From contig JARKIF010000040.1 in assembly GCA_029378245.1 (NCBI GenBank), positions 248,001 through 312,000 of the forward strand: DNA of 64,000 nt. Direction: 5' to 3'. Source of the DNA: Roridomyces roridus. Taxonomy: Eukaryota; Basidiomycota; Agaricomycetes; Agaricales; Mycenaceae. The notes under the pieces are model-generated. The model saw only the letters and a program-made list of their open reading frames with translations. It did not search any database and had not been told where the DNA came from. Shown one piece after another: positions 2,346 to 54,595 of the stretch; the stretch's first letter is position 1; the number at the start of each line of letters is the position of its first letter. A program made the translations under genes and the position numbers.

Positions 2346-4357
2346 CTCACCAGCTACCCAGATTATGAGATTACCATTGATGAAATTCCATCACCATCTC
2401 CTGAAGTCCCAGCTGTATCATGGATGATTGAAACTTCGACGGACCCAAAGGTTTTGGCACTGTGTGCTGAAATCACTTCGCAGCTCCAGTGGCCGTCTCA
2501 GGTGACGAACCTTCCCTCTCTGATGGGGCGATTCCGAGAGAAATTCCTGCAGTGTTTTGATTATCATGAGCTTCTCAGCAATGATCTTCATATTACTGCA
2601 ATACATGATGGGATGGAAGATATTGCAGTCCAATTTGGACGTGCCTATTGCACACTACGTGCCACAGACCCATTGGTGGAAATATTTCAACACTGGGACA
2701 GAATTTCGCATGGGCAACAGATCATGGATCATCACCGCCGGGTCTACACAGTACTGCAAATTGTAAGGGCCTCGGCAAAGCCTATAGATTTGCCCCTCGC
2801 GCCCTCTGATGGAGAAGAACTCAAATGGCTGATGCATGTTATTCCATCCCTAAAGTTCACAGCATATTCCCCAGTTATTGAGGTTTTTCTTCTTAGGGTG
2901 GAACAGCAGACAACAATGGCAAAAGTGGATTCCTCCTTTTTTGCTGCTTACTTGTTTTGCCTCAACTTTTTACTTTCTGATGGTACTTTCAAGGTTGGCA
3001 CAGTGTGGATGGACAAAAGGTATGCACTGCAGTTGATTCTTCAAAAACAATAAATGAACTCTTCTCCAGGGACTTTGCAGAACCTGCATTCTGGCAGATT
3101 CTCAGAAATTTAACCAAAAAGATGCAACAAGACAACCTCCAGATACAACTTGTGACATCAATTTTAAATCAAATAGCACAGGTTGCCAAAGATCTGCAAA
3201 GCACCTTCCCTATCTGGGAGCAGACCAATGCCAATATACTATTTGAGTTCTGCGGAACTCTTGCATCTCATCAATCAAGTTCAATGGATAGTATCTACAC
3301 AACAATGATGCTCATACCCATTGTAAAGGCTGCACCTGATGTGGAAGTGAAGCCGCATTATACCAATTGGGTATTGCAAGCACTAGATCAGATTCCTGAC
3401 CACCAGGACAGACATGTCCCTTTGTTTTCACTAGTTCTGCGCCTCTTGCGTGCTCTGCTCTGCTGTACAGACTGGTTCAATAAGAAGATTGCAGTTGAAT
3501 CACTTCAAACCATCATGAAACAACTTTCATTGGAAAGAGATGTTGGCTTCACCGGTTCATCCACAATTTATGCATTCATTCTTGGGATAAGCCAGCAATC
3601 ATGGTTCAAAGATGAAGATGTTCAGTCACTCATGTTGAGTTTAGATCTATGGACCTGGCTTGGAGCAATATCGAAGGATGATATATCTGTGTGCAGTGAC
3701 TATATCAGGATTGGGAGGAATCTAGCCAATATACCACATTGGCATTCATCCATGCAATCAGAACTTAGTACATGGTGGTTCACAACCACATGGGGTCTCG
3801 ATGAAGCAGTATTACCTGACTTTTGTTCAACCCTCTCAGATGTGTGGGGGTTGGATCCGGAAAACAAACTCCAAGAGCCCGCTTTGAGCAGCAACCAGAA
3901 GCCCAAAGACTTGGCTGCCACATTTCTTTGCTCAATTTGGGATGTTTTTGACTTCACAAATCCACATGCCCTCAATCAGCTGGTTCTGTCAACAATTTGG
4001 GCTGCTATTGCCAACGATAATCCTGCCAACCAAGTGACAGAAAATGAGCGGGCAGAACTTGCATCTATGATGGTAGATGCTATTTTGCATGCCGCAAAGA
4101 AAGTGTCTGCATTGCCAGCGCTGGGCACAGCGAATCAATCTGGAAGGGAGGATTATAGGGGTGAAGGAGACTTTGAGAAGCTCTCACTTATTCTTGAAAG
4201 CTTAGCGAGGACAATCAAGGGGGAAATTAAAGAATACCAAGGTGATAACACCTGGGAAGGGGTCTGGCACCAATTCAAAGTCAGACTGATATTCTGGAAC
4301 CTGTTGCCGGGGATGGGGGAGCAGCTGCCAGGCGAACTCCAGGTCACCTCAAGTTGA
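2340..4357 (+). CDS. 5'-truncated agaricomycete protein resembling the C-terminal half of DUF6535-type proteins
   Basis: Two exons, about 2340-3019 and 3070-4357, joined by a 50 nt GT..AG intron (phase 2). The joined product is about 650 residues. It contains the pattern WMIETSTDPKVLALCAEI followed by LQWPS and an F..CFD segment. I recognise this as the helical repeat-like region that follows the membrane domain in DUF6535 proteins of Rhizoctonia and relatives (function unknown). The N-terminal membrane part that normally precedes it is absent, because the coding frame runs directly into antisense gag sequence at about 2335-2345; any ATG upstream lies in retroelement DNA. The base composition is visibly more AT-rich than in neighbouring genes. 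It is probably a gene fragment. Family naming is moderately sure, truncation is surer. Confidence 0.55.
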
Positions 4358-44339: not shown

Positions 44340-44590
44340 CTCTAGTAAACCACAATTCGAGAAGAGCCCATTCTCCACCATCTAGGTAGCACGCGCACGT
44401 CAACCCACTTCCCCCAGTGCACAGTTTTGTAAATGGTATACAGTGTGTCCGACAACACTGAGCGAGGCCAGTTGAACATAGATAAAGAGTGTCCCGTGGA
44501 GGGAGGATTGGGTTATTTCGGCCTCGTCGAACTTGTTGGTCTGGCACTAATAAGGGCATGGTTGTCAGCACCTAGGGCTAAGTCGGGTTC
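44340..44590. repeat. dispersed repeat, copy 1
   Basis: Blocks GAAGAGCCCATTCTCCAC, CAGTTTTGTAAATGGTATAC, TGTCCGACAACACTGAGC, TCCCGTGGAGGGA.GATTGGG and GTTGGTCTG reappear in the same order at 54305-54590. It could be a fragment of an LTR: on the minus strand it would carry a TATATA-type promoter in copy 2. Confidence 0.7.
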
Positions 44591-44668
44591 TAGTCGGCAA
44601 CGAACGAGGCGACCGAGCGAAGAGCAGCAGACGAGACTCAAGAGGTAGAGCAAGCCGTAGGGAGAATA

Positions 44669-47396
44669 CATCAGTAAAACTACAGAAAGCACTCTGAGGT
44701 CTTCGGACTCTGAACGAGGTCTTCGGACTTGGAGACGTGAGCTATGAAGGACTTTAAAGGACTTTGATTCCGACAAGGACTCTGATGTAAGTTGACCAAA
44801 AACAGAAACGACCACTTCTTTTGAGGCATCCAGGGTATGTACATGGAATATTCTTGGCCTGGAAGGTGTGGCGGCCCATGGAAGTCTGAAGATGTCGAGG
44901 AGGTATATGCCAATGTAGCGGGCTTGCTGTCCGATTTGTTTAGCGAATTTGAAACGCAAAAAAAATTACCGAGCCGAGCAAGAGCCGAGTCGGACCATTC
45001 TTTCTCCCTTCCCCCATGTCCACCCTCTCAGCTCCAAAGAGGAGGCGCCCCACCACTCGATCCCAGGCCCATGAAGACGACGCTCCTCCGGACGAAACCC
45101 AGCCAACTCGACCTGGTCTCGCCACTCGCCCAGGAAACGACCAGATCCACCCCGCCGTCGAGGCAGGTGTTGTCAGCACTCGTCGCACCCCGACACAGAA
45201 GGCGGCCGACGACAAGAAAGCTGCCGCGGCACAGAAGCGTGCAGAGGCTGAGGAGGCTGAAAAGCTTGCGCGCGTCGCTGCCATCGAAGATAAGCAGCGC
45301 CAGCAGGACGACAAGTATCAACAGACGGCTCATCATCCAGTCGACCCCCCACGCTCGAGTCGACCGTCCCAGCGTCCGCGTGAGCCTGATTTCGATGCCG
45401 AGGAACTGGAGGAGATGGAAAATGGTCAGTGTCGCAATCTCTTCATCGCTGTTCTAATTCGCATCCAGTGAGGAGGAAGACGACGAGGATGGGTCTGACG
45501 CCGAGGAAGAAGCGCCCCAACGCAAGAAGAAGCAGCCCAAGAAAACCCGCGAGGACATCCTCTCCGTGCGCGACACTCAAGATGCGACGGGTACCCCCGT
45601 ATCCAGCGGGCACAAGCGCAGCCGGTCGACGACGAGGTAAGCTCAAAGCATCCTTCTTTTCAGTCTGACCAATTCTCAGTGCAAACGAGACCGTGACGAA
45701 GAAGAAGGCCAAGAGGGGCAAGACGTCGGGCCTCTCGGAGGGTGTGAAGAAGGCCCTCAAAAAGGGGAAGGTAGACGAGGGTGCGGCTGAGATTGTGAAG
45801 TACGGAGGGCCCGCCAAAGACGACGACAAGGAGGAGGACGTCGAGCGGGCAAAGGGCGGCCAGAAAGGCTTGCCTCAAGCAAGTCGTGCCGTGCTCACGT
45901 CACCTGATACTCATCTCTCTTGCCTTCTCCCACCACCAGACCATCGTCAAACTCGCCCCAGTCAAATCCCTCACCCAGAAGGCCCAGCGTGGTGATGGCT
46001 CGAAGCGCTGGTCCACGGCCCACATCCCCGGCCCCGCCGGTAACGCCAAGAAGTTCAATGACGAGGTCGCACCCCGCATCCGCATCGAGGTAGCAAAGCT
46101 CGGGCCTTGGGACCAACTCACCGTCGAAGCACGTCAAGGTATCCTCGACAAGATCTACACTGACACGAAAATGGACGCCGATAGTGATCTCTGGTCGTCC
46201 CTCGTACGTCTCCCGTCAACATTGCACGACGGCCGCTAACGACCTTAGTGCCGACAACGCACCTCCGCATACCGGACGTCGTTCCCACCCCAAGCGCATC
46301 TCTGCATGCAGCAGTTCATCCAGCAGTCGATCGAAAGTATGTCATCCACTCCTCCTCGTTCCTCGCCACTGACTCTGGTCAGCTGTAAAGAACATGACCG
46401 CGGCGCAGTTGGAGGAGTGGGACGGCTTTCAGCTCGACAAGCCAGACGACATGCGGGAATACGTTGCGGGCCTGCCCGTCGAGCTCAAGGACAAGAACAA
46501 GGTGCTTCATTATCGGGACTTCGAGAGCGAGGAGGTGAAATCGGTGCATTAGTTTCGCTGCATCCATGGGTATGACTCATACATATTTCAGGCCTACTGT
46601 CAATCCCAGCCAATACTCTACACCTACGCCGCGCATCTGGCGTACCTCAAGAGCCTCCCCGCCGGCATTGATTTCAAGTCAGCCAATGTCAGCGCGCTGG
46701 CCTTGGCCGCGCTAGCGGTGCGTCACTGTCACGTTTCCCGTCTCGCTTCTGATTTCGTCCCAGTGGGAACGTGAGCTCAGCTTCTGGGCGTCCGGGGTGT
46801 ACGTGGGCCCGACCCGCAGCCAGACCGATCACTTCTCGCAGGACAACTGGGGCGATTACGTGGAGGAGCGCGGTGACAAGAGGGTCAAGGTTAGCCGCGC
46901 CACTCGCCCTGTCCCGTCACTCAAGCTCTGGACGTCCGACAAGTGGGAGGCGGTTAACAAGCTTGCGTCGAAGTATATCCCGGAGGATACGAACAAGGGT
47001 CCGGGGTCGAAGGCCGCTGCTAAGCGCCGTTCCGCGTCGCTCTCATCCTCGGATGCCGAGAGCACCGGGGTGGAGGAGGAGCAGGACGTCATCATCATTG
47101 ATTAATGTCCGTATATAGAAATTGTTTCGCCCATTTTAGAATATGATCGCCATTATTTGTCATCCATAAACCTCTCTGAAGACCACTGGGGAGACCCGAA
47201 TACAAACTATGGAAAGATCGGATACGTCTTTGACAAGCGGTGATTTGACTTTGAAAGACCTCGAGGTCTTTGGGGTGCTGATGGACCCTCCTCCGTGAAG
47301 ACCTAAGCACTTTGGACTCGAACGGGTCTTCTTGGTCTTTGAGGACTTCCCAAATTCCTCAAAGTCCTCATAGTGCATCTTGTAGTTTTACTGATG
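44669..47396. mobile_element. 2.73 kb TIR element with TA duplication enclosing a gene with eight exons
   Basis: CATCAGTAAAACTACA at 44669-44684 is repeated exactly in inverted orientation at 47381-47396. Including the next 15 bases, the 31 bp ends agree at 27 positions. TA flanks both ends (44667-44668 and 47397-47398). Inside each end are repeated AGGTCTT-type subterminal motifs: GAGGTCTTCGGACT twice at 44696-44730, and AAGACC/GGTCTT copies at 47250-47340. The only gene inside is the one at 45016-47105, which has no transposase motif known to me. The left end abuts the dispersed repeat and the right end abuts LTR sequence. Confidence 0.78.
45016..47105 (+). CDS. charged nuclear-type protein of unknown family, eight exons, inside a TIR element
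   Basis: Exons 45016-45428, 45469-45636, 45680-45890, 45940-46203, 46249-46336, 46383-46534, 46592-46717 and 46764-47105 join in frame with GT..AG introns of 40-57 nt to about 587 residues. The first 250 residues are low-complexity and charged: an Arg/Pro-rich start, the coiled coil AAAAQKRAEAEEAEKLARVAA, an acidic block, and basic clusters KKKAKRGK and RKKKQPKK, typical of nuclear proteins. The ordered part has KLGPWDQLTVEARQGILDKIY, a Cys/His-poor middle, SFWASGVYVGPTRSQTDHFS and LKLWTSDKWEAVNKLASKY, then an acidic tail. No DDE, CCHC or helicase motif is seen. Similar tails occur in multicopy agaricomycete hypothetical proteins as I recall. Whether it is cargo or a new kind of transposition protein is open. 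Confidence 0.75.
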
Positions 47397-47398
47397 TA

Positions 47399-47654
47399 GA
47401 CTAGATTCGTCTACAGTACTGAGACTGTGGACGGGTATATATACTACATGATCGAATTAGGTACGAGGGGTAGGGGGTAGGAGCAGGGGCGATCGCGACA
47501 AGTAGGGGTTTAAATGCAGGGGAGAGTGGAGTACCAAGCAGGGGTTGAGACAAGACCTGGCCGATCAGTGATGATCACTGATTAGGGTATTGATGGTTGA
47601 TGATTGATCGGGTTACAACCCGTCGGGTTGTGGCCTGGGGTCATATCATGACAT
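47399..47654 (-). repeat. 3' LTR (part) of the decayed chromovirus
   Basis: On the minus strand a polypurine tract GGGGGGGATAA at 47655-47667 is followed by TGTCATGATATGACC, a typical LTR start. The segment contains TATATATAC near 47436. The left limit coincides with the TA next to the TIR element at 47396, so that element may have inserted into or beside the LTR. Confidence 0.5.
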
Positions 47655-54304: not shown

Positions 54305-54595
54305 ATTCAAGAAGAACACATTCTCCACTACGTAGTACACACGTCAACCCACTAGTACTGTGGGCAGGTCAAATTCCTTCCCGATAAACGTGAGCACGTG
54401 TGCTCCCACAATGCACAGTTTTGTAATTGGTATACAGTGTGTCTGACAACACTGAGCAAGTACAAAACACAATAAATGCCGGGTGAATATATAGATAAAC
54501 AGCATCCCGTGGAGGGAAGATTGGGTTATTTCCGCCGCGTCGAACCGGTTGGTCTGACACCAATACGGGCCTGGTACCGTTGAATCTGTTCAGAT
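54305..54595. repeat. dispersed repeat, copy 2
   Basis: Same block order as 44340-44590, with an extra segment around 54375-54410 (CGTGAGCACGTGTGCTC) and an AT-rich TATATAGATA near 54490 absent from copy 1. Confidence 0.7.

Follow-up and report, generated by a model that had tools for sequence, protein, structure and literature searches.

Plant En/Spm transposons need two proteins, the transposase TnpD and TnpA, a binder of the subterminal repeats, and among CACTA elements the DNA-binding proteins and the repeats diverge faster than the transposases, as outlined in PMC2613891. Plavaka has been placed in the CACTA/EnSpm-Mirage-Chapaev-Transib clade and is related to the En/Spm transposase. In the main text of Kojima 2025 (PMC12730594), PlavakaB is described by CATCA..TGATG termini and target-site duplications (TSDs) of 2 or 3 bp, and EnSpm in the strict sense by CAC..GTG termini and a 3-bp TSD; we found no mention of a second, non-TET companion gene in the passages on Plavaka that were compared here. 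The domain DUF6532 is merely listed with Plavaka in PMC8955403, among the additional domains of two Ganoderma species, and in the open-licence literature, as distinct from print as a whole, we found only this bare listing.

The window element and its family

The window is the whole 64-kb stretch of Roridomyces roridus DNA that was analyzed, and its positions 44669-47396 are a 2.7-kb DNA transposon. Its parts are listed here; the C112 element is a longer relative described below.

44667..44668, no strand: TA, left TSD copy (flank reading; joined flanks)
44669..44703, plus strand: left terminal inverted repeat, CATCAGTAAAACTACA..., first 16 bp exact
44695..44770, plus strand: left subterminal array of AGGTCTT/AGGACTT and GWCTTTG-type repeats (6-mer counts versus shuffles)
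44816..44821, no strand: internal-deletion junction (element positions 148/153 correspond to positions 147/3410 of the C112 element)
44820..44879, minus strand: transposase-gene remnant, a start codon plus the first half of a C2H2-like zinc finger
45016..47105, plus strand: gene B (FB45DRAFT_1066877), 590 amino acids, eight exons
45016-45428, 45469-45636, 45680-45890, 45940-46203, 46249-46336, 46383-46543, 46592-46717, and 46764-47105, plus strand: exons of gene B
47226..47368, minus strand: right subterminal array of GWCTTTG and AGGTCTT/AAGACCT repeats (6-mer counts versus shuffles)
47362..47396, minus strand: right terminal inverted repeat, pairing with the left repeat
47397..47398, no strand: TA, right TSD copy (flank reading; joined flanks)

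With the TA on each side included, the inverted ends (44667-44703 and 47362-47398) are 37 nt long and 86% complementary, and the outermost 16 bp of the element match exactly. At up to three mismatches, this 16-mer occurred in the window solely at these two ends; shuffling gave an expectation of 0.27, with two or more occurrences in 1 of 100 shuffles. An earlier note, made from the letters of this DNA, had described the inverted ends with 16 exact bp, the TA on both sides, AGGTCTT-like subterminal motifs, and an eight-exon gene at 45016-47105. All of these are present, with AGGTCTT/AGGACTT at both ends and a protein of 590 rather than 587 residues; our final splice model equals the annotated FB45DRAFT_1066877 letter for letter.

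In the 90.8-Mb R. roridus genome, the 16-bp end has 44 exact occurrences, or 62 when up to one mismatch is allowed, while the reversed control pattern, searched on two strands of the same genome, gave 0 and 1, respectively. These ends could be paired into 20 elements, which range from 0.7 to 7.3 kb and include one with the variant ends CATCAGC, and at least two further elements carried one degenerate end (C201, 9.4 kb, and C35:228945-230199). The paired elements had ends of approximately 60 to 150 bp in common and unlike interiors. Matching 2-bp flanks (GA, CA, TA, TG, TC, GG, or TT) bordered 17 of the 20 and were missing from the other 3; three of the 17 were copies of one site, which leaves 15 of 18 independent sites. 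When the flanks of the window element were rejoined with one TA, 123 candidate loci were obtained, and the 40 that were scored and listed matched at 95 to 99% across the junction. Since these alignments were continuous, the listed loci lack the element at the junction, at the level of the alignments. These results show by copies, TSDs, and empty sites that the family of the window element is mobile. Thus, as the earlier note had proposed, the element is a real, non-autonomous DNA transposon, and related insertions are numerous; the further copies and empty sites that the note suggested looking for were found; the TA duplication that it took as the mark of such copies holds for the window copy and not for the family, in which GA, CA, TG, TC, GG, and TT occur elsewhere. 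TA flanks can therefore mislead, the actual TSD being two bases of varying sequence.

The termini of the window element are CATCA..TGATG, as in PlavakaB, and the TSDs of its family are 2 bp long with varying sequence. A PF18759 transposase is encoded by the C112 element, which has the same ends, and the window copy keeps only the first codons of that gene; the translated C112 transposase has candidate stretches, picked out by eye, for the DDE triad with its C(2)C and its H(3-4)H motif that characterizes PlavakaB. In its termini, its TSD length, and the transposase of its long relative, the window element fits a non-autonomous PlavakaB derivative, and it belongs to a known group of transposons rather than to the undescribed one suggested earlier. 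A Tc1/mariner-type element, with TA-specific TSDs, was ruled out by the TSDs GA, CA, TG, TC, GG, and TT found besides TA, and a strict EnSpm/CACTA element was ruled out by the CAT..ATG termini and the 2-bp TSD.

The surroundings of the insertion and some other members of the genome deserve separate mention. The host sequence around the insertion (44562-44668 and 47399-47648) is repetitive, at least 40 copies matching at 95 to 99%, and the left flank 44410-44562 has a second copy approximately 10 kb downstream, at 54404-54575, that is 86 to 93% similar. Three near-identical 5.3-kb elements (C90, C124, and C458) with the same flanks consist of a 1.4-kb ends-only element and a 3.9-kb insert with an 8-bp overlap at its bounds; within the insert is an open frame of 543 residues, for which no Pfam family scored above the cut-off. 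At C2:989600-998500, a 1.35-kb ends-only element is split by a 5.9-kb insert with a 5-bp overlap at the junction and one 1715-residue open frame, gag-pol-like by eye. A 2689-bp element at C79:449900-454400 has the variant ends CATCAGCAAAACTACA and the TSD TG; BLAST gave no stretch longer than 60 bp in common between it and the other elements, and additional isolated ends of this type are found in the genome.

Long relatives and the loss of the transposase gene

The C112 element (3649043-3654643; 5601 bp, TSD TC) has the same ends as the window element and contains two divergent genes, a Plavaka transposase and a homologue of gene B. The tested piece of the transposase matched PF18759 with an E value of 2e-61, and profile positions 1-325 were covered by three matches without stops. 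The two copies of gene B were 80 to 86% identical in DNA over the longer pieces and 76% and 84% identical over longer gapped pieces. Approximately 400 bp of the middle exons are absent from the C112 copy and its frame is lost in the splice model, so this copy is probably broken. When the window element was aligned to the C112 element, the alignment jumped from position 147 to position 3410, with approximately 3.3 kb missing that includes nearly all of the transposase gene, and the remnant on the minus strand at 44820-44879 reads MGRHTFQAKNIPCTYPGCLK versus MVRRAFHERNIPCPYPRCLK... in the C112 copy (its C2H2-like zinc finger was named by eye). The window element is best read as an internal-deletion derivative of a two-gene element in which gene B was kept. 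Other members, of 1.3 to 1.4 kb, have only the ends in common with the window element; because such ends-only members exist, gene B is dispensable in cis.

B-like sequence was counted at three loci in the R. roridus genome (window, C112, and C101) by a search with three family queries (window B, P0006, and P0003). We left out of this count two matches in C205 and C480 (E values of 0.003 to 0.005), which covered only a charged stretch of approximately 76 to 78 residues. The C101 element (646295-659443) has the TSD GA and exact 18-bp ends, CATCAGTAAAACGGCCGG, of which only the first twelve bases agree with the window family; its transposase (minus strand) and its B-like gene (plus strand) both lack their N-terminal parts. 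An intact element with transposase and gene B was thus not seen, the C112 copy of gene B being damaged and both C101 N termini missing. Nested in the C101 element is a 7447-bp element with TGTCGG..CCGACA ends. This element is found at C101:650140-657586 and within C201:455880-465870 (99.6% identical), that is, in two different CATCA elements, with the 2-bp TSDs TG and TA as read from the flanks; its termini fit the description of PlavakaA (TGT..ACA), and it has frames on both strands with no Pfam match in the pieces tested.

Between C101 and C112, the transposases aligned in 12 pieces with 50 to 83% identity, 11 of them at 60% or more. For gene B, the same pair of elements aligned in one piece of 82 residues at 24% identity and one of 17 residues at 59%; window B matched C101 at 31% over residues 467-577 (the last exon), and other B relatives matched it at 27 to 42% over longer pieces, some of them read through introns. 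By these alignments, gene B evolves faster than the transposase.

This recurrence bears on the possibility, raised in the earlier note, that gene B was captured from the host and is carried as passenger cargo by a non-autonomous element. Transposons do capture genes, and the window copy has no transposase. However, the divergent pair of transposase and gene B occurs in two diverged element families, and it is the presence of the pair in the C101 family as well that disfavors cargo. Orthologues lacking the inverted ends, which the earlier note had named as the sign to look for, were not among the loci counted within R. roridus: 3 of 3 B-like loci lie inside CATCA..TGATG elements, a linkage that refers to the one genome examined. 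Several Mycena genomes, furthermore, have more than one family member each. We regard host cargo as the least probable of the explanations considered, and gene B is probably a standing companion gene of the element.

Gene B protein and its possible relation to DUF6532

Of the 50 proteins found in the third protein search, 49 are named and one is a metagenomic fragment without a name; all searches together gave a gene B family of 52 members, of which the 51 named ones come only from Mycena, Roridomyces, and Favolaschia. Mycena sp. CBHHK59/15 alone has 16 members, each on a different contig. Comparison of the window copy with the C112 copy gave a dN/dS of 0.26 (bootstrap, 0.19 to 0.34; 452 codons), which indicates that gene B is under constraint; because the comparison is with a transposon copy, the value mostly reflects selection within the element. 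An intact, annotated reading frame together with this dN/dS is also what would be seen if the window copy had been domesticated, that is, if a former transposon gene were retained for a host function. We think this very unlikely, since the insertion sits in a repeat of at least 40 copies, its ends and TSD are intact, and the dN/dS was measured against a transposon copy.

In an AlphaFold2 model built from the 52 sequences (mean pLDDT, 71), residues 271-410 and 441-550 are predicted to be helical, with ten-residue pLDDT means of 84 to 96, and two short strands are modelled, at 509-513 and 516-520. Most of the N-terminal half has pLDDT values below 50, except for one long predicted helix at 59-103; it includes an acidic stretch at 116-160 (19 D/E, 7 K/R) and a basic stretch at 161-270 (26 K/R, 16 D/E). 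No Pfam family scored above the cut-off, no PDB structure matched the fold at E values of 0.001 or lower, which does not amount to a new fold, and no DNA-binding motif or fold was recognized by Pfam, the model, or the PDB comparison. As modelled, gene B does not resemble an RNase H-like catalytic domain. The proposal that the protein belongs to no known transposase family therefore agrees with a helical model that has no RNase H-like sheet and no PDB match at this threshold. The accompanying suggestion to look for a hidden RNase H-like DDE fold returned helices and two short strands, with the proviso that the absence of a match is no proof.

Among weak Pfam matches of the 52 members, DUF6532 was the commonest, appearing in 10 at E values up to 10 (best, 0.0015), and DUF6760 was the next commonest, with 4. 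The window protein itself matched PLD_C first (E, 0.066) and DUF6532 (PF20149) second (E, 0.15), the latter at 12.4 bits, below the gathering score of 24 bits; its residues 394-507 align to DUF6532 positions 71-181 of 194. The DUF6532 matches viewed singly (P0001 and 4 of the 20 members scanned) involve the C-terminal helices and DUF6532 positions 71-182. Profile-profile comparison of gene B with DUF6532 gave P values of 0.003, 0.002, and 0.005 at hhalign probabilities of 6.7 to 12.5%, with a score of 28.0 versus 19.4 for the reversed profile. In 100 column shuffles, 99 scored at most 22.2 and one scored 133.4, and in 300 further shuffles, 295 scored at most 24.3 and five exceeded 130 on 3 to 18 columns; we take the scores above 130 for a program artefact. 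On this weak sequence evidence, gene B may be a distant, fast-diverged relative of DUF6532, and we judge a common origin to be likely.

Most DUF6532 genes of R. roridus are themselves neighbors of Plavaka transposases. Of the 35 DUF6532 loci in the genome, 25 have a PF18759 locus no more than 6.5 kb away, against an expectation of approximately 1%, and 23 of the 25 are divergent to the nearest one. The counts were reduced by hand, to 35 DUF6532 loci from 57 rows and 68 PF18759 loci from 142 rows. Of the 68, 25 neighbor DUF6532, 2 neighbor a B-like gene, and 41 neighbor neither, many of the 41 being weak or partial. In the three insertions checked, CATCA..TGATG ends bordered by identical 2-bp flanks enclose both the DUF6532 gene and the Plavaka transposase:

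C35 (TSD CC) and C323 (TSD TC): two DUF6532/Plavaka insertions that belong to a single family and share 99.96% identity over 5.36 kb
C334 (TSD CG): DUF6532/Plavaka insertion of 6194 bp

Among 49 CATCA/TGATG pairs, the one chosen for C334 has the best-matching termini, with 12 of 14 bases in agreement. Gene B and the DUF6532 genes hold an equivalent place and orientation relative to the transposase.

A putative accessory protein and its known counterparts

The ends of the gene B elements are rich in short repeats. Counted on both strands, GGTCTT occurs 7 times in the window ends, and no 6-mer occurred more than 6 times in any of 200 shuffles; ACTTTG occurs 10 times near the C112 ends (shuffles, at most 5) and TGTCTT 8 times near the C101 ends (shuffles, at most 6). 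In the DUF6532-type C35 element, ATGTAG occurs 6 times, not above the 6 of the shuffles. A GWCTTTG core is present 5 times in 280 bp of ends both in the window element and in C101, whose end sequences differ (shuffle mean, 0.06 to 0.09) and is not found in the C35 ends; it was picked after the ends had been viewed and serves as a lead only.

The long form carries a Plavaka transposase and gene B, divergent, between CATCA..TGATG ends, and we propose that internal deletion of the transposase gene produced the non-autonomous window element. By analogy with TnpA, the gene B protein would be an accessory transposition protein that binds GWCTTTG-type subterminal repeats and helps the transposase to assemble on the ends; elements with ends only, or with ends and gene B, would move when a fuller relative supplies the transposase. 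The TnpA-like role is favored by the combination of subterminal repeats, a conserved transposase, and a fast-evolving companion. Overall, we consider it likely that the window element is a non-autonomous PlavakaB element derived from a two-gene element by deletion of the transposase, with gene B encoding an accessory transposition protein.

The main rival is that gene B encodes a transposon-borne anti-silencing or chromatin factor that shields the element and stands outside the transposition reaction. Precedents are the TET/JBP genes carried by Plavaka and other fungal elements, in the main text of PMC12730594, and VANC, the anti-silencing companion of the Arabidopsis VANDAL elements, as described in PMC5735166 and PMC10398659; fast divergence, a charged and disordered N-terminal half, and subterminal repeats would fit such a factor too. 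However, no Pfam family scored above the cut-off, and by eye the predicted model is unlike a TET/JBP dioxygenase. We judge an anti-silencing role to be unlikely, though to be kept in mind beside the accessory transposition protein that we prefer.

A broader and more tentative reading, to which we give somewhat less than even chances, is that Plavaka elements of mushrooms are largely two-component systems, in which the transposase is paired with a divergent companion of a DUF6532/gene-B superfamily that would bind the ends in a family-specific, TnpA-like manner. If true, an orphan domain family of mushroom genomes would gain a function, and the retention of gene B in an element with no transposase would be explained. 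If the companion is conserved, "hypothetical proteins" and DUF6532 genes would be transposon genes instead of presumed host genes, gene counts would be affected, as would claims that genes have expanded in particular lineages, and a concrete two-gene system for testing would be at hand.

Compared with known systems, the window element resembles PlavakaB in its CATCA..TGATG termini, its 2-bp TSDs, and its 5.6-kb relative with a PF18759 transposase, and differs in that the window copy has no transposase. Harbinger-type elements, with a transposase and a Myb/SANT protein, share the design of a two-protein DNA transposon; however, their transposase and companion are of different kinds, and the TSD of Nuwa is 3 bp (PMC12730594). 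With plant En/Spm, the system shares a related transposase clade, two proteins, subterminal arrays, and a companion that diverges faster; in contrast, the termini here are CATCA rather than CACTA, gene B is a separate, divergent gene, and the Pfam matches of gene B include no TnpA-type family. The DUF6532 genes are alike in lying beside Plavaka transposases within the same kind of ends and in the weak match of the C-terminal helices, whereas the window protein reaches 12.4 bits versus a cut-off of 24. What is known here is the transposon group, and what is new is the companion gene and a possible larger companion family of DUF6532 genes.
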